NCBI GenBank assembly: GCA_934254755.1
Contig: CAKQMM010000013.1
Coordinates: 1-13,064 of the forward strand
Direction of reading: 5' to 3'
From: an uncultured Clostridia bacterium
GTDB taxonomy: Bacteria; Bacillota; Clostridia; Christensenellales; Borkfalkiaceae
Length of the DNA stretch: 13,064 nt
The notes under the pieces are model-generated. The model ran no database searches. It was not told the origin of the DNA and saw only the letters and a program-made list of their open reading frames with translations. Every line of letters starts with the position of its first letter. The first letter of the stretch is position 1. Shown piece by piece: positions 5,688-13,064 of this stretch. The position numbers were made by a program, and so were the translations under genes.

Positions 5688-7850
5688 ATGGATATTTTAG
5701 AAAAACTGCGTACGGAGTTTAATTTAACCGAAACCCACACCGAAAATATAGTTAAACTTTTGGACGAAGGGGGAACGGTCCCCTTCATCGCCCGTTACAG
5801 AAAAGAAATGACGGGGCATATTGACGATCAGGTTTTGCGTTCTTTTTCGGAACGCCTCGAATACCTCCGTAATCTTGAAAAGCGCAAGGAAGAAGTTAAA
5901 AAGAGCATAGCCGAGCAAGATAAATTGTCGGATGAAGTCGTTGCCGCGCTTGAAAAAGCCGAAACGATGACGGAAGTAGAAGATATTTATCGCCCGTTTA
6001 AGCAGAAAAAGAAAACCCGCGCAACCGTTGCCGTTCAAAAAGGGCTTTTGCCGCTTGCAGAAATTATTTTAGAGCAAAACAAAAACGGCGAACCGCTTGA
6101 AAAACTTGCCGAAAACTATATAAACGAAGAACTCGGCGTAAAAACCGCGAAAGAAGCGATACAAGGGGCTCTCGATATCGTCGCCGAAAAAATCAGCGAC
6201 GACGCTGAAATTCGTAAACTTCTCCGCCGCATGTTTATGCGCCTCGCGGTCGTCACCGCGGAGTTTACGAAAGCCGCGGCAGAAGACCCCGAAAAGTCCG
6301 CCGTTTACGAAACTTATAAGAATTTCAGCGGCGCGATAAGCGGGCTTAAGTCTTACAGAGTGCTTGCCCTTAACCGCGGCGAAAAGGAAGGGTTTTTAAA
6401 AGTTAAGGTTAAAATCGACGAAGATTTTGCCGTCAATTTAGTTGAAAATTCCGTTATTAAGAACGAAAGTCCTTATAAGGAAGCTCTGAAAACAGCTTGC
6501 GCCGACGCGTACGACAGACTTATCGAACCGTCGATAGAGCGCGAAGTAAGAAGCGTTTTAACCGACGGAGCGCAGGAACGTGCCATTAAAACGTTTGAGG
6601 GTAACTTAAAACCCCTTTTAATGCAGCCTCCCCTTAAAGGTAAAACGGTTATGGGGTTTGACCCCGGTTACAGAACGGGGTGCAAGGTCGCCGTCGTTGA
6701 CGAAACGGGCAAGGTGCTCGATAAAACCGTCGTATATCCGACCATCGGCACCGACCACGAAAAAGACAAGATAAAAATAAAAGCGTTGATCGATAAATAC
6801 GGCGTAAACGTCATATCTATCGGCAACGGCACCGCGTCGAAAGAAAGCGAAGTGTTCATCGCCGACCTTATTAAAGACTACGGCGGTAAAGTGCAATACA
6901 TCGTCGTTAGCGAAGCGGGCGCGTCCGTTTACTCGGCAAGCGAACTCGGCGCGCAGGAATTCCCGGATTTCGACGTGTCCGAACGTTCTGCCGTGTCTAT
7001 CGCAAGGAGGCTTCAGGACCCTCTTGCCGAACTCATAAAAATCGACCCGAAGTCTATAGGGGTTGGGCAGTACCAGCACGATATGCCCGCCGCGCGGCTC
7101 GATCAGGCGCTTGACGGCGTTTTGGAAGACTGCGTTACGAGCGTCGGCGTAGATATAAACACCGCAAGCGCGTCCCTTTTAACGCATGTTTCGGGGCTTA
7201 ACGCGGGCATTGCCAAAAACATCGTCGCTTACCGCGAAGAGTACGGCAAATTTAAAAACAGAAAGCAGCTTTTAAAAGTTGCAAAACTCGGCGAAAAGGC
7301 GTTTTTGAACGCGGCGGGCTTTTTGCGCGTCGCAGGCGGCGATAACGTTCTCGATAACACCGCCGTACACCCCGAATCTTACGTGGGGGCGGAAAAACTT
7401 TTGACGGAATTTGGGTATAGCGAAGCCGACGTCGTCGGCGGCAGGCTTTCGGATCTCCCCCAAAAAGTTAAACAAAAAGGCTACGCCGTCGTCGCCGAAA
7501 CTTGCGGGCTTGGCGAAGATACGCTTAAAGACGTGTTGACCGAAATAGTTAAGCCGGGGCGCGACGTGCGCGACGATTTGCCAAAACCCGTTCTCCGTGC
7601 CGACCTTATGAGTTTAAGCGATTTAAAACCCGGGATGGTCTTAAACGGAACGGTCAGAAACGTAACCGACTTCGGCGCGTTTATTGACATAGGCGTTCAC
7701 CAGGACGGGCTCGTTCACGTCAGCGAAATAAGCAACAACTTCGTATCGCACCCGTCAAGCGTTTTAAAGGTCGGCGAGAGCGTTAAAGTCAAGGTTTTGG
7801 GCGTTGACGAAAAGAAAAACAGAATAAGCCTCACCATGAAAAATATTTGA
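5688..7850 (+). CDS. tex: Tex-family S1 RNA-binding transcriptional accessory protein
   Basis: Bacterial Tex/Spt6-like nucleic-acid-binding protein of 720 residues, the usual length. Domain order fits the family: a helical N-terminal region with FIARYRKEMTG near residue 34 and EVEDIYRPFKQKKKTRAT near 95-112; a YqgF/RNase H-like fold from about 322 (MGFDPGYRTG); a helix-hairpin-helix region about 485-550 (SVGVDINTAS through KFKNRKQLLKVAKLG); and a C-terminal S1 domain about 648-718 (GTVRNVTDFGAFIDIGVHQDGLVHVS). Family members bind RNA or DNA and influence transcription; the exact molecular role is not settled. GAGG at 5678-5684, overlapping the stop of the GH13 gene, gives a 7-nt gap and probable translational coupling. 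Its place behind glycogen genes looks like operon hitch-hiking rather than a pathway link. No terminator is visible after it. Confidence 0.96.
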   Translation: MDILEKLRTEFNLTETHTENIVKLLDEGGTVPFIARYRKEMTGHIDDQVLRSFSERLEYLRNLEKRKEEVKKSIAEQDKLSDEVVAALEKAETMTEVEDIYRPFKQKKKTRATVAVQKGLLPLAEIILEQNKNGEPLEKLAENYINEELGVKTAKEAIQGALDIVAEKISDDAEIRKLLRRMFMRLAVVTAEFTKAAAEDPEKSAVYETYKNFSGAISGLKSYRVLALNRGEKEGFLKVKVKIDEDFAVNLVENSVIKNESPYKEALKTACADAYDRLIEPSIEREVRSVLTDGAQERAIKTFEGNLKPLLMQPPLKGKTVMGFDPGYRTGCKVAVVDETGKVLDKTVVYPTIGTDHEKDKIKIKALIDKYGVNVISIGNGTASKESEVFIADLIKDYGGKVQYIVVSEAGASVYSASELGAQEFPDFDVSERSAVSIARRLQDPLAELIKIDPKSIGVGQYQHDMPAARLDQALDGVLEDCVTSVGVDINTASASLLTHVSGLNAGIAKNIVAYREEYGKFKNRKQLLKVAKLGEKAFLNAAGFLRVAGGDNVLDNTAVHPESYVGAEKLLTEFGYSEADVVGGRLSDLPQKVKQKGYAVVAETCGLGEDTLKDVLTEIVKPGRDVRDDLPKPVLRADLMSLSDLKPGMVLNGTVRNVTDFGAFIDIGVHQDGLVHVSEISNNFVSHPSSVLKVGESVKVKVLGVDEKKNRISLTMKNI

Positions 7851-7872
7851 AAGGCGAAAGGCTTAAAATTTA

Positions 7873-7901
7873 TTGACAACAGCCGCGCTTTTTGTTAAAA
7901 T
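7873..7901 (+). promoter_or_regulatory. Sigma-A-type promoter of acpP
   Basis: TTGACA at 7873-7878 and TAAAAT at 7896-7901 are separated by exactly 17 nt. The -35 box is perfect and the -10 box is one base from consensus. Transcription would start near 7908, giving a leader of about 55 nt before acpP. This makes acpP independent of the upstream glycogen/tex operon. Confidence 0.8.
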
Positions 7902-7963
7902 TATCCCGTAACGTGAAATTTGTAAAAATAGTTTTGTTTCCGTTCGGCTTTTAGGAGGAGCAA

Positions 7964-8191
7964 ATGAACACTTTTGATAAAATAAAAGAATTATTGGTTG
8001 AAAAATTAGGCGTTTCGGCGGATAAAGTCAAGCCCGAAAGCGAAATTATTAAAGATTTGGGTGCGGACTCGCTCGACCTTGTCGAAATGCTTCTTACGCT
8101 TGAAGAAAGTTTCGGCATCACCGTCAGCGACGAGCAGACCGAAAATATTTCGACCGTTCAGGACATCGTTGATTTAATCGACAAAAAGTAA
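7964..8191 (+). CDS. acpP: Acyl carrier protein
   Basis: Small acidic cytoplasmic carrier of 75 residues that holds growing acyl chains on a 4'-phosphopantetheine arm during fatty acid synthesis. The attachment motif [10 protein letters not shown] is intact with Ser36 as the modified residue. The helical pattern, and ILE/VAL-rich segments such as [23 protein letters not shown], match primary-metabolism ACPs. A strong ribosome binding site (AGGAGG, 7952-7957) precedes the ATG. The gene has its own near-consensus promoter and terminator and no fab, plsX or rnc gene beside it, so it is probably monocistronic and highly expressed. A specialised ACP (lipoteichoic acid or polyketide) cannot be excluded, but no partner enzyme is nearby. 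Confidence 0.95.
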
Positions 8192-8199
8192 TAAAAACT

Positions 8200-8224
8200 G
8201 CCGCGGGCTTCCGCGGCTTTTTTT
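8200..8224 (+). terminator. Intrinsic terminator of acpP
   Basis: A perfect 7-bp stem GCCGCGG/CCGCGGC (8200-8206 and 8211-8217) with loop GCTT is followed by seven T residues (8218-8224). It starts 9 nt after the acpP stop codon. Confidence 0.95.
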
Positions 8225-8228
8225 GTTA

Positions 8229-8254
8229 GGCGTTTCATTTAACGCCACTAATTA
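8229..8254 (+). repeat. Left terminal inverted repeat of the 235-bp element
   Basis: Begins GGCGTT and ends ACTAATTA; 22 of 26 bases match the reverse complement of 8438-8463. It can also form its own hairpin, GGCGTT (8229-8234) with AACGCC (8241-8246), which the right copy forms only in part. Confidence 0.75.
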
Positions 8255-8287
8255 TTTTTGTGGCGATAAGTCGATTTATGCTGCGTT

Positions 8288-8328
8288 AAACGCCGCTCGT
8301 AGTACGGCAAGTACAACGTCGGGCGTTT
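8288..8328 (+). repeat. Internal hairpin of the 235-bp element
   Basis: AAACGCC (8288-8294) pairs with GGCGTTT (8322-8328). After a 3x3 internal loop, CGT (8298-8300) pairs with ACG (8316-8318). After an A/A mismatch, GTAC (8302-8305) pairs with GTAC (8311-8314) around the loop GGCAA. This gives 14 base pairs in all, unlikely to be chance. Confidence 0.7.
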
Positions 8329-8382
8329 GCCTTGCCTAAACAAGCCGCAAGCGGTCGACTTCTCGCGCCAAAAACGCTTGCG

Positions 8383-8437
8383 CCATAAAGCCGCTATTGA
8401 AAACCTGTTCAAGTAAATATAAAATGCGGCTTTATGG
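8383..8437. repeat. Perfect 12-bp inverted repeat within the element
   Basis: CCATAAAGCCGC (8383-8394) is the exact reverse complement of 8426-8437. The 31-nt loop holds a candidate outward promoter. There is no T-tract after it, so it is not a standard terminator. Confidence 0.85.
8397..8425 (+). promoter_or_regulatory. Candidate promoter inside the element, facing the peptidase gene
   Basis: TTGAAA (8397-8402), a 17-nt spacer and TAAAAT (8420-8425) fit a sigma-A promoter with one mismatch in each box. It would give a transcript starting near 8432 and a leader of about 85 nt before the peptidase ATG. Prediction from pattern only. Confidence 0.5.
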
Positions 8438-8463
8438 TAATTAGTTTCGTTAAATTCAACGCC
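8438..8463 (-). repeat. Right terminal inverted repeat of the 235-bp element
   Basis: Read on the minus strand it begins GGCGTT, contains ATTTAACG and ends ACTAATTA, mirroring the left terminus. TTA follows immediately at 8464-8466. Confidence 0.75.
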
Positions 8464-8475
8464 TTATTTATAAAT

Positions 8476-8509
8476 TTTAATAATTATAAGACTTTAATAA
8501 TTATAAGAA
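8476..8509 (+). repeat. Two tandem 17-nt AT-rich repeats before the peptidase gene
   Basis: TTTAATAATTATAAG followed by AC, then the same 15 bases followed by AA (8476-8492 and 8493-8509). Each copy contains the palindrome ATAATTAT. The second copy runs into the ribosome binding site AGAAGGA (8506-8512). It could be a duplicated operator, an upstream -10-like region or a replication slip. Confidence 0.75.
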
Positions 8510-8516
8510 GGACAAT

Positions 8517-10214
8517 ATGAAAGTAAGTGAAATTCCGTACCTTAGGTACGACGTGAATAAAATAATTACCGTATTTTTCGCCGCCGAGAAAGAACTGAAA
8601 ACCGCAAAATCAAGCGAAGAAGTCAAAAAAATAAGAGAAAAAGTCGTTGAAGAGGAAGTTCAGCTCGACACCGCTTTTAATCTGGCGTTTATCCGCTGGT
8701 CAATAAACACGGCGGACGAGTTTTACGTCGCCGAAAAGGAATATTACGACCAAAACCTTCCAAAAACGTATAAAAGCAAAAACGCATACCAGAAGGCGTT
8801 TTTAAGCGTGGTTGAAAAATTCGGCGGGGACTATCCGCCGTCGCTTTTAAGCGTAATAAAATATAAACTTATCTCCGAAAACGAAAAAATCGAAAGCGAA
8901 GCCGCCGCCGAGAATGCTCTTGTCAGCGAATATTCCGACTTTATGAGCGCGCTTACAGTAGACTATAACGGCGAAAGTTTGCCCGTAACCATAATTAAGG
9001 GCTATATGTGCGACGGGGATAGAAAAGTTCGCGAAAAAGCGCACAACGCGCTCGGCGCGGCTCTTAAAACAAACGCCGAATTTTTGGATAATAATTTTGA
9101 CGCGCTCGTTAAAAACCGCGATAAGCAAGCGAAAATTTTAGGGTTTAAAAATTTCACGGAACTATCCTGCTATCGCATGAACCGCACGAGTTATAAAGAA
9201 GCGGAATTAAACTCGCTTAAAAACTCTATTAAAAAATACGTAGTGCCCGCGCTTACCCGTCTGCGCGGCGAAATAGCCGAAAAGCTAGGGATAGAAACCC
9301 TTAAAATTTACGACCTTTCCGCCGTAACTAAAAGCCTTCCGCCAAAACCCGTCGCAAGCGGCGCAGACCTTCTTGAAAACGGGCGGAAAATGTATCGCGA
9401 AATGAGCGAAGATACCGGCAAATTTTTCGATTTTATGTTAAATAGCGACGCTTTTGACGTTTTGTCGAAAAAGAATAAATGGGGCGGTGGTTACGAAACG
9501 GATATTGCGGGGTATAATCAGCCGTTTATTTTGGCGAACTTCAACGGAACTTCCGCCGACGCCGACGTTTTAACTCACGAAGCGGGGCACGCTTACGCAA
9601 GTTATAAAATGAGCGAATCTAGGAAGGATAAAGAACTCGGCCTTCCGTTTATGGACGTTGCCGAAACCCATTCGATGAGCATGGAATTTTTCTGCTATAA
9701 GTTCATTAGAGAGCTGTTCGGTAACGAGTCTGAAAAGTACAAATTCTCGCATTTAATCGATAGTTTTACCTTTATCCCGTACGGTGCTATGGTTGACGAA
9801 TTTCAAAAAATCGTTTACGAAAAACCGTCGCTTACTCCCCTTGAAAGAAAGGCTGAGTGGCTTAAACTCGAAAGCGAATATCGCCCGTTTTTCAGTAACG
9901 ACGGCGTTACTTATTTTGAAGACGGCGGCAGGTGGCAATATCAGATGCACATCTACGAAAACCCGTTTTATTATATCGACTACGTTATCGCGGGACTTAC
10001 CGCAATGCAGTTTTTGATTTTATCGCTTGAAAATTACGACGCTGCATTTGAAAAATATTGCAAGTTTATATCTTTCGGCGCAGACGAAGGGTACTTGAAT
10101 TTAATTGAAAAGTGCGGGTTAAAGTCGCCTTTCGTTGAAGAAACCATTAAAGAAATTACCGAAAAAATTTCTGTGGTTATAGACGATTTTATAAGCCGCG
10201 GCGCGTGCGAATAA
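8517..10214 (+). CDS. M3-family zinc oligoendopeptidase
   Basis: Cytoplasmic metallopeptidase expected to cut short peptides. At 565 residues it fits the M3 oligoendopeptidase branch close to, but distinct from, PepF. The zinc site is HEAGH at 354-358, with E355 as the catalytic base. The third ligand is probably E383, exactly 25 residues after the second His as in the M3 family, in the segment DVAETHSMSMEFF typical of this subgroup. The long helical N-terminal half (about 1-300) is the usual channel-lining region. There is no signal peptide. AAGGA (8508-8512) lies only 4 nt before the ATG. The gene stands alone between the 235-bp element and its own terminator, so its promoter is probably in 8397-8500. 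The substrate is unknown. Confidence 0.93.
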   Translation: MKVSEIPYLRYDVNKIITVFFAAEKELKTAKSSEEVKKIREKVVEEEVQLDTAFNLAFIRWSINTADEFYVAEKEYYDQNLPKTYKSKNAYQKAFLSVVEKFGGDYPPSLLSVIKYKLISENEKIESEAAAENALVSEYSDFMSALTVDYNGESLPVTIIKGYMCDGDRKVREKAHNALGAALKTNAEFLDNNFDALVKNRDKQAKILGFKNFTELSCYRMNRTSYKEAELNSLKNSIKKYVVPALTRLRGEIAEKLGIETLKIYDLSAVTKSLPPKPVASGADLLENGRKMYREMSEDTGKFFDFMLNSDAFDVLSKKNKWGGGYETDIAGYNQPFILANFNGTSADADVLTHEAGHAYASYKMSESRKDKELGLPFMDVAETHSMSMEFFCYKFIRELFGNESEKYKFSHLIDSFTFIPYGAMVDEFQKIVYEKPSLTPLERKAEWLKLESEYRPFFSNDGVTYFEDGGRWQYQMHIYENPFYYIDYVIAGLTAMQFLILSLENYDAAFEKYCKFISFGADEGYLNLIEKCGLKSPFVEETIKEITEKISVVIDDFISRGACE

Positions 10215-10434: not shown

Positions 10435-13064
10435 AAAGACGTTAAGGTAAAAGATTCTGAAAATAAGTTTTTTACGGTTGAATTTTTCGGTGTGGCGATA
10501 ATCGTCGCAACTTTTTTGCTGCTCGTCGCGCTTTTGTTCGGCAAAAGCGTGCTTTTCGAGTTGGGTGCGGAAGTTCAGGCGTTTTTGTACGGGTTTTCGG
10601 GATATTTTTCTTACCCCCTTTTAATCGCGCTTAATTACGTCGGTTTTATGATGGTGCTCGGCAAAAAAATACAAAAGTCTTCCACCAAAACGAACGTCAG
10701 ATTCGCGCTTTTATTTTTAATTGCTCTTTTGTGCCTGCTTACGACGATAGGCGGGGCAAGGTCTGCTACCTCTTACGGCGAATATTTAAAGCACGCCTTT
10801 TCGGCGGGAAGGCAGGGGCTGTCGTCCGCGGTTGCGGGCGGATGGCTTTTCTCGCTTATAACTTACCCGTTCGTTAAAGTTATCAAATACGTCGGCGCGA
10901 TAATCTTTTTCTCCCTTTTAACGGTTTTAATCATCGTTTTATATGTGTTAAAGCGTAAAAAAGGCGCGGTTAAAACGGAGGGAGTGAGGGCGTATCCCGG
11001 CAAACTCCCCGGGGAGAACGACGCGGACGGCGGCGCGCGCGCCGAGCAGGGAACCGCCGCTTATCCGTCGGGTGCTAACAGCGAAGAAAGAGGCGGATTT
11101 GCCGCACAAAACGGTTACAATCAGAACGCTTATAATCAGGGCGGTTATGGCTATAACCCGTTTGAAAAGTACGCGCGTAACGGCGCGGGTGAGAGCGGGA
11201 ACGGTCAAGCCGCTTACGGCGGGCAAAGCGCGCAAAATTACGGCGGCTCGCAAAACCCGCAAAACTTCGGCGGTATAAACGGTCGCAACGACTATAGTCA
11301 AGGTTATAATAACGGAGGTTTTTCGGCGAGCGCAGGCGGTTATAATCAGAACGCTAACGCTTACGGCGGTAACTATAACCGTTCCGCTTACGAGCCTCAA
11401 AACGGCTACGCCACGCGTGAAGATAATCGCGGCGGCTATAATTCGGGCTACAATCAAGGTTACGCCGCGGGCGGGTATTCCGAATATAACCAAAATAACA
11501 ACGCTCAGCAGGAAGCGCAAGATCCGCGCTTCGTCAGCGTTGACGGGCAGAATAGATACGGTAACGACGAGAAGTTTGACGAAAACATGCGTACCATTTA
11601 CGGTAAGCCCGTAACTTACAGCGAGGCATACAGAAGCGATTTCGACCCGCAAAAAAACGTTTCGAGTTTCGGCGTAAGCGAAAAATTCGAGCAAAACGAC
11701 GGCGTTTCCGACCCTATTGACAAAACGTACTTAAACAACGAAAGTCCTTACGGCGGCAATGCGTACGACAATAACTTTGACGCGCCGAATAATTACGCCA
11801 CGAAGGAAGAAGCGTTTGAAAAAATAGACGAAGATACGGTTGACGTAGAAGATCCGTTCGCGCCTATCGAAGACGAAAAACCGAAGGTTGACGTTAAAAA
11901 ATTCTTTGAAGGGCGGGCTAAGAAAGAAGCGAGTATATTGTCCGGCAAATCGCCTATTAACGACGGCGAAGTTTCTGACGCGCCCAAATCTACCAAAGCA
12001 AGCGGCGGCGTAAACTTCGTTTCCGACGAAGAGGAAGACGACGGGCGCAAAATGATCGAAAAAATGCCCGTCAACTATAAATACACTCCGCCGCCGATAA
12101 CTCTTCTAAAATCGGTCGATACGCGCGAAAACGACGCAAAGTACGAAGTGTATCGTCAAACGATAATAAACCGCATTTTGTCAACTCTCGCCCGTTTCGG
12201 AGTGGAAACGACGATAGCGCAAAGTTTCCGCGGACCTGCAGTTTCCCGCTTCGATATCGAAGTGCCGGAAGCCGTTCCGATGAAAAAAATCACGCAACTT
12301 TACGACGATATCAACTTGCGCGTTAAAGCGGCAAGCGCGATTCGTATGATTGCGCCCGTGCCTAACACCGATTACGTCGGCATCGAAGTTCCTAACGAAA
12401 AGCCGGACTCCGTCGCGCTTAAAGAACTTATCGCGTCGCCTTATTTCGATACGAGCAAGCCTTCGTCTTTAAACTTTATTTTGGGTAAAGATATAGTCGG
12501 CAAACCCGTTTGCTTAGATTTAGCCGAAATGCCCCACGTTCTCGTTTCGGGTACCACTGGGTCGGGTAAAAGCGTGTGCATAAACTCTATGATAGCAAGC
12601 CTTATTTTCCGCTATTCACCCGCGGAATTAAGGTTTATAATCGTCGATCCCAAAAAGGTTGACTTCGTAAGCTATCAGGATCTTCCGCACATGTTGTTCA
12701 ACGAAATTATCGAAGACGTGCCTGTCGTAAACGCAATGCTTACCTGGGCGGTCAACGAAATGAACGAACGCTATCGCATCCTGCGCGAAAAGGGCGTTAA
12801 AAAACTCAGCGAATATAACGCGAAAGCTTCCGCCCGCGGCGAAAAACTTATGCCGAGGCTCGTCATTATAATCGACGAGTTTGCAGACCTAATGAAGCAG
12901 GACCAGCGCGGCATAGGCGACAAAATTTGTATGCTTGCGCAAAAATCGCGTGCGGCGGGCATACACCTCGTGCTTGTCGCTCAGCGCCCGTCGGCGGATA
13001 TAGTAGAAGGACCCATAAAATCGAACTTGCCTGCAAGGCTCGTATTTAAAGCGGCGTCTAAAAC
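10432..13064 (+). CDS. ftsK: FtsK/SpoIIIE DNA translocase, 3' end cut by the window
   Basis: Membrane-anchored ATPase that pumps double-stranded DNA at the division septum during chromosome segregation or sporulation. The frame is open for 877 codons to the window end. Order: a 4- or 5-pass membrane domain (about 13-37, 52-77, 90-107, 130-148, 153-173) ending KRKK; a Tyr/Asn/Gly/Gln-rich linker (about 224-360); an acidic charged stretch (about 400-510); the alpha domain starting near PPPITLL; then the RecA-like motor with Walker A GTTGSGKS (707-714, K713) and Walker B LVIIIDEFADLM (D815, E816). AQRPSADIVEGPIKSN is also a family hallmark. The rest of the motor and any winged-helix gamma domain lie beyond the edge. 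Start is TTG. SpoIIIE versus vegetative FtsK cannot be told from this part. Confidence 0.95.
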   Translation, partial: MKDVKVKDSENKFFTVEFFGVAIIVATFLLLVALLFGKSVLFELGAEVQAFLYGFSGYFSYPLLIALNYVGFMMVLGKKIQKSSTKTNVRFALLFLIALLCLLTTIGGARSATSYGEYLKHAFSAGRQGLSSAVAGGWLFSLITYPFVKVIKYVGAIIFFSLLTVLIIVLYVLKRKKGAVKTEGVRAYPGKLPGENDADGGARAEQGTAAYPSGANSEERGGFAAQNGYNQNAYNQGGYGYNPFEKYARNGAGESGNGQAAYGGQSAQNYGGSQNPQNFGGINGRNDYSQGYNNGGFSASAGGYNQNANAYGGNYNRSAYEPQNGYATREDNRGGYNSGYNQGYAAGGYSEYNQNNNAQQEAQDPRFVSVDGQNRYGNDEKFDENMRTIYGKPVTYSEAYRSDFDPQKNVSSFGVSEKFEQNDGVSDPIDKTYLNNESPYGGNAYDNNFDAPNNYATKEEAFEKIDEDTVDVEDPFAPIEDEKPKVDVKKFFEGRAKKEASILSGKSPINDGEVSDAPKSTKASGGVNFVSDEEEDDGRKMIEKMPVNYKYTPPPITLLKSVDTRENDAKYEVYRQTIINRILSTLARFGVETTIAQSFRGPAVSRFDIEVPEAVPMKKITQLYDDINLRVKAASAIRMIAPVPNTDYVGIEVPNEKPDSVALKELIASPYFDTSKPSSLNFILGKDIVGKPVCLDLAEMPHVLVSGTTGSGKSVCINSMIASLIFRYSPAELRFIIVDPKKVDFVSYQDLPHMLFNEIIEDVPVVNAMLTWAVNEMNERYRILREKGVKKLSEYNAKASARGEKLMPRLVIIIDEFADLMKQDQRGIGDKICMLAQKSRAAGIHLVLVAQRPSADIVEGPIKSNLPARLVFKAASK
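11101..11511 (+). repeat. Low-complexity Y/N/G/Q-rich linker coding region in ftsK
   Basis: Codons 224-360 are built from degenerate GGYNQN, NQGGYGYN and GYNSGYNQGY-like units. An 18-base segment GGTTACAATCAGAACGCT (11113-11130) recurs at 11338-11355 with one change, which suggests growth by duplication. The long open frames on both strands here come from this biased composition. Confidence 0.85.

Follow-up and report, generated by a model that had tools for sequence, protein, structure and literature searches.

Introduction

In ordinary MITEs the enzyme reads the ends of the element and the inside drifts, and MITEs of the Stowaway type (Tc1/mariner) combine a TA target with a foldback structure. 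The bacterial elements RUP, Correia/NEMIS and ERIC are short and have terminal inverted repeats, TA ends, intergenic spread and strong folding, and the accessible part of the source quotes bacterial MITEs with 5'TA3' ends as < 200 bp (PMC2229807). Among the elements covered in that part, RUP is linked to IS630-Spn1 and is the only one listed with a matching resident transposon (PMC2229807). The accessible parts of two further sources describe REPINs (RAYT / TnpA-REP) as extragenic, inverted doublets of palindromes with compensatory changes (PMC3116915, PMC8266576).

The window, i.e. the whole 13,064-nt stretch of DNA that was analysed, contains between acpP and a peptidase gene a folded block that is probably a partly decayed, non-autonomous palindromic mobile DNA of the MITE-like type, inserted at TA behind the acpP terminator. 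Its relatives form a dispersed, multi-copy and mainly intergenic superfamily with mostly TA ends, complementary termini, one or two hairpin arms and a conserved core. This MITE-like superfamily is without a description in the literature searched, most subscription journals lying outside the reach of that search. With Stowaway-type MITEs the elements share the TA target and the foldback. In contrast to ordinary MITEs, the inside is kept here and the ends differ. The features named above for RUP, Correia/NEMIS and ERIC recur in the superfamily; unlike in the described part of that group, two-arm copies exceed the quoted length (the measured copies span 165–317 bp, and shorter remnants occur), and a hairpin-arm core is common to families with unmatched ends. 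As in REPINs, the palindromes are inverted, extragenic and marked by compensatory changes.

Results

Structure and state of the window element

The features of the locus are listed in Table 1. The layout that had been proposed from the sequence (26-bp termini, TTA flanks, an inner hairpin and a 12-bp arm) proved accurate on reading the sequence. TTA stands at 8226-8228 and again at 8464-8466. The mismatches between the left terminus and the reverse complement of the right one fall into two doublets, TC/GA and CC/AA. The repeat search returned the perfect 12-bp arm (8383-8394/8426-8437), and the termini were absent from its list. The pairing of 8261-8274 with 8355-8370 consists of 5 + 7 bp with a small internal loop between them. 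No ORF of 60 aa or more in the window ORF list overlaps 8226-8466.

Table 1 Features of the acpP–peptidase spacer in the window.
Feature	Position	Strand	Basis
Terminator-like hairpin following acpP, immediately before the insertion point	8200..8217	+	Sequence
Whole element, TTA on either flank (TA = likely duplicated target)	8226..8466	.	Sequence, folds, end comparison
Left terminal inverted repeat	8229..8254	+	22/26 positions pair with the right one; closing stem in folds
Arm 1, intact long branch, 120 nt	8255..8374	+	Minimum-energy fold branch; aligned with relatives
Conserved core of arm 1, apical GTAC-loop-GTAC hairpin	8280..8338	+	Scores 74.1 bits with model R1
Possible mini-hairpin CGC-TT-GCG between the arms	8375..8382	+	Sequence; absent from the window's own minimum-energy fold
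Arm 2, perfect 12-bp base and A+T-rich loop	8383..8437	.	Repeat search, folds
Right terminal inverted repeat	8438..8463	-	Sequence; closing stem in folds

The fold of 8226-8466 has an energy of -92.7 kcal/mol, compared with -61.2 (SD 4.9) in 200 dinucleotide shuffles (z -6.5), and the reverse strand gave z -7.4. No shuffle was as good on either strand (0/200 each), which bears out the earlier impression that the block is too ordered for ordinary spacer.

The window copy carries one extra T at its right end, and the flank repeated in related copies is TA, so the window TTA may consist of that TA and a T that is there by chance. TTA as the true target was considered and set aside, since none of the other extracted copies repeats more than TA. 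The window element escaped the scans for TA-flanked inverted repeats because its ends are worn by the extra base and the terminal mismatches. Only the base of arm 2 is retained, where full-length relatives have an arm of 107–118 nt. Since arm 2 is without its inside, four terminal positions are mismatched and a base has been added, this copy is probably immobile. The block most likely represents a worn and partly decayed copy of a small non-coding mobile DNA rich in hairpins.

Some smaller features were also seen. The left terminus alone (8229-8246) resembles a terminator, with a GGCGTT/AACGCC hairpin followed by a T-rich tail. The arm 2 loop contains a promoter-like TTGAAA-17-TAAAAT (8397-8425) directed toward the peptidase gene, a match that is not above chance (2 sites in 7850-8600 vs a shuffled mean of 1.4). 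Pairing of a GGCAA loop with a downstream TTGCC was noticed by eye and is lost in the genome G019.

Related copies and their ends

A search for dispersed copies in related Clostridia had been proposed as a check of the original prediction, and such copies were found in a sample of 201 genomes from the family of the genome of locus L001, the nearest family. The element matched 21 of the 201 at E <= 0.01, where about 2 are expected by chance, and seven of them below 1e-6. Among the 14 weaker genomes the one inspected, G070, has a full-length copy. With all candidates scored, G080 has 7 strong copies, and at E <= 0.001 there are 12 copies in G019, 6 each in G107 and G065, 2 each in G119 and G087 and 1 in G071. 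Four of the G107 copies are 94–98% identical. With one mismatch at most, the pattern TAGGGATTCCATTC was counted 34 times in G080 (reversed control, 1) and 38 times in G019 (reversed control, 0). The copies of the relatives are thus dispersed, multi-copy, non-coding repeats as in bacterial MITEs of the TA class. Phage and plasmid collections gave short matches only (E 0.09 or worse), and two exact core patterns had 0 hits each in viral contigs, where diverged copies would escape exact patterns.

A scan of 80 stretches for TA-flanked inverted repeats revealed three families of ends in G080 (A, B and C), with full-length elements of 280–295 bp and shorter forms. Twenty-three copies, the window element and 22 from seven genomes, were extracted as delimited by their ends. 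The window copy is 0.54–0.71 identical to the other 22 in gapped global alignments (highest with A_L211), a scale on which unrelated flanks reach about 0.5. The window element and its relatives also have terminal inverted repeats, a further mark of bacterial MITEs of the TA class. The predicted TTA flank was not found in the relatives, and TA instead stands at both the start and the end of 19 of the 23 copies, a count biased by the choice of copies with visible ends. The departures are the window (TTA/TTA), G019_L106 (CA/TA), G070_L091 (CA/TG) and E_L110 (offset by one base). Two A copies abut with one TA in common.

All 23 copies fold better than their shuffles (z -2.8 to -15.7, 40 shuffles each), and the minimum-energy fold has two branches of more than 40 nt in 21 of them. 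One long arm only is present in A_L211 and A_L241, and G019_L106 has two arms with arm 1 placed differently. A small junction hairpin between the arms appears in 9 of the 23 folds. The description of one closing stem with two branches therefore suits most of the extracted relatives and fails for single-arm relatives elsewhere in the class. In some copies the profile of the arm 1 core also matches arm 2 on the opposite strand, with E from 2e-4 (L246) to about 0.1 and weaker elsewhere, and for this reason the two arms look like inverted paralogues.

In two places (L207:2473-3040 and L235:9284-9536, the latter meeting the contig end) a C-type element is nested in arm 2 of an A-type one, its position being similar in both, and this recurrence suggests that the A/C composite itself has moved. 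Two 42-bp, TA-flanked, near-perfect palindromes that begin TAGCC (L238:108-149 and L290:3382-3423) are possibly terminal repeats without an inside.

Spread in the class, target and placement

Among 391 genomes sampled from the class of G080, model R1, built from 25 core sequences including that of the window, matched 31 at E <= 0.001, one of them G080 itself; the E-values are rough, and copy counts are at least those recorded, as at most 14 candidates were scored per genome. In G351, G538, G276 and G414 a common terminal repeat flanks apparent single-arm elements (reversed-pattern control, 0), and the loci examined hold 18 distinct copies with both ends. Thirteen of these are exactly 168 bp long and one is 167 bp; those of G276 measure 165, 229, 231 and 237 bp, and in G351 and G538 together the length is 168 bp in 12 of 13 copies. 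Mean identity is 0.93 for the 6 copies of G351, 0.95 for the 7 of G538 and only 0.67 for the 4 of G276. Their flanks average 0.51–0.54 identity, the value being 0.80 in a single pair of G351 flanks. AG precedes TA in 14 of the 18 copies and CT follows TA in 14 of the 18, which gives AGTACT as the preferred target of the single-arm family.

The copies are mainly intergenic. The mean ORF overlap of 57 intervals was 0.14 by simple ORF calls, where ORFs cover 0.84, and 8 of the 57 overlap ORF calls by more than half.

Pairing within the termini, arms and core

Termini pair well inside a group and barely between groups. The mean duplex energy was -32.8 kcal/mol for the two ends of one copy, -29.8 for ends of the same group (n=108) and -9.2 for ends of different groups (n=398), and 8 of the 398 cross-group pairs reached the weakest own duplex. 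The left terminus of the window element gave -23.2 with its own right end and nearly as much, -17.4 and -20.2, with the right termini of elements from A and G019, a cross-pairing that is expected if the window element derives from that group. The arm-base duplexes show the same trend in a weaker form (-17.2 vs -8.0 and -14.5 vs -7.7); cross-group duplexes reached the weakest own one in 168 of 334 cases for arm 1 and 105 of 334 for arm 2, and the bases are less distinct than the termini.

The inner hairpin core is common to families whose terminal repeats do not match. In the alignment of the same 25 cores, 97.0% of 300 cells are paired. Changes on both sides of a pair were found at 7 of the 12 core pairs (27 cells), 1 of the 300 cells has a one-sided change, and none of 500 shuffles scored as high on pairing and two-sided changes. 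Compensatory changes, whose absence had been named with the prediction as an argument against an RNA, are present in the core. The number of further pair types was not in excess (8 vs a shuffle mean of 9.8), and pair 20-40 fails in 7 of the 25 sequences. When the partner column was slid by 1–3 positions, pairing fell to 20–48%, a comparison favoured by the structure having been drawn from the same sequences.

The locus in gene-order relatives

The element sits between the terminator-like hairpin of acpP and the peptidase gene at 8517. Relatives of the peptidase were collected (best 80 of 185; several loci were too short upstream to judge gene order), and tex and acpP were also matched in 2 of these best 80. 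The two loci, L001 and L002, are Clostridia bacterium records from yak colon and roe deer cecum, and their peptidases are distant (51% and 48% identity, 51% being the highest among the peptidase relatives). L001 and L002 have 35 and 129 bp, respectively, between the acpP stop and the peptidase start, compared with 325 bp in the window, and the window element is absent from this spacer in both distant relatives. The L001 and L002 genomes gave only 15–19-bp chance matches to the element (E 0.17 or worse). Model R1, applied to the best 80 peptidase loci and the window, matched the window alone, whose core was model input. The search for an empty site yielded two distant relatives of the same gene order without the element and no base-exact empty site. 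Dispersed copies, TA at both ends of 19 of the 23 copies, these two relatives and the outcome of the literature search agree with the original prediction of a MITE-like element of an unnamed family.

For locus L116 an empty site was sought in 15 genomes of the genus of G080 and none was found; the flanks were 68–77% identical with partial coverage. The nested pair at L207:2473-3040, where a C element interrupts the second arm of an A element, was tried as an empty site and rejected, the left flank differing by several bases. In L002 the acpP–peptidase spacer (1795-1870) contains by eye a separate palindrome unlike the window element.

Search for a mobilising enzyme

No close convergent pair of A ends in G080 or G019, or of the common ends of G351, G538, G276 or G414, encloses a transposase-sized stretch; convergent ends in the last four genomes enclose 165–237 bp only. 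The longer units are a nested copy of 568 bp, two abutting copies of 661 bp and, in L280, two A copies in opposite orientation separated by some 4.5 kb. The scan listed other long TA-flanked pairs, e.g. L235:256-1140.

The genomes examined, whose assemblies are incomplete, yielded no resident autonomous transposon with matching ends, a result that weakens the case for a named parent and not the case for mobility. Repeated genes are easily and often lost from metagenome assemblies, so the missing enzyme says little either way, and the autonomous parent may be missing from the metagenome data.

Discussion

A transposase encoded elsewhere would move the element, which would be excised and then joined into a TA target that becomes duplicated. 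The arm core is conserved from family to family, whereas the termini vary greatly. On this ground we tentatively propose that recognition by the enzyme depends on the hairpin core, in the form of folded DNA, no less than on the terminal repeat. Extended to all relatives, the proposal, which is equally tentative, describes a mobile superfamily across the class Clostridia in which an internal folded core, single or as an inverted pair, would be recognised, the terminal repeats could have almost any sequence if paired, and a new enzyme would carry out structure-guided transposition into TA. Several transposases, each with its own ends, are about as likely as core reading. It is quite conceivable that the elements are ordinary MITEs that go back to several unrelated insertion sequences; each terminal-repeat family would be moved via its ends by its own TA-specific transposase, and the common core would be a passenger descended from one old element. 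This agrees with our proposal on mobility and differs over what the enzyme reads. Small bacterial mobile repeats typically show TA ends with terminal repeats in the accessible part of PMC2229807, copies of one family in one genome keep the same ends, and the preference for the palindromic AGTACT resembles an ordinary transposase target. However, the three families of G080 and others keep one core with two-sided changes while their ends diverge, and a passenger should decay faster than the ends. In addition, DDE_3 (IS630, Tc1/mariner) was found in 0 of the 7 element genomes and 0 of the 201 genomes of the family, a difference both from Stowaway-type MITEs and from RUP with its link to IS630-Spn1. 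It is unlikely that the elements are REPIN-like, i.e. pairs of inverted hairpins that a REP-associated tyrosine (Y1) transposase mobilises in single-stranded form, even though inverted doublets with compensatory changes and the opposite-strand match of arm 2 to the arm 1 profile are what such elements would have. Y1_Tnp gave three matches in 2 of the 7 genomes, all interrupted by stops, and no uninterrupted match. One of them, in L244, we take from its look to be an IS200 remnant, and since a C-type end begins at TA inside it (L244:1440-1750; an A-type end follows downstream), the element appears to have invaded it. The single-arm family moreover has TA flanks with the AGTACT preference, and B, C and the 168-bp family do not preserve the GTAG that stands beside REP palindromes in the accessible part of PMC8266576.

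Two further readings were weighed. That the block is a structured non-coding RNA or a cis-regulatory block kept for its transcript is highly improbable. The very stable fold and the core covariation would suit an RNA, and plus-strand stems lean the same way with 32 G-T against 15 A-C mismatches; the figures for the minus strand (24 vs 26) and for the termini (30 vs 35) show no such lean, and all these counts come from related, hence non-independent, copies. We read the pairing as one of DNA, which is favoured over RNA because the termini have G-T and A-C mismatches in near-equal numbers. Rfam gave no match at the gathering cut-off inside any element and four sub-threshold hits around that of the window, and the claim of a structured RNA was thus not upheld, with the termini showing no G-U preference and the folded stems mixed. 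The single one-sided change in 300 core cells and the absence of the element from the two gene-order relatives also stand against an RNA. A dead palindrome is improbable as well: template-switch repair could keep stems paired without selection, and two-sided changes almost without one-sided ones fit the copying of strand onto strand during replication. Template switching leaves unexplained the unpaired core letters that are kept, the constant 168 bp of G351 and G538 and the AGTACT preference. Mobile DNA of this kind explains folded intergenic blocks that resemble RNA in these genomes. If the core is indeed read, the superfamily would represent another route, besides REP elements, to the structure-directed mobility of tiny bacterial DNA.

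Known RNA motifs were matched at the Rfam gathering cut-off in positions adjoining elements or core, a pan motif at L090:1306-1388 and a TPP riboswitch at L339:1344-1448. In the window, TTTAATAATTATAAGA occurs twice and exactly between the element and the peptidase start (8476-8508), with starts 17 bp apart, and a long minus-strand open frame of biased composition faces shorter plus-strand frames at 10948-11694.
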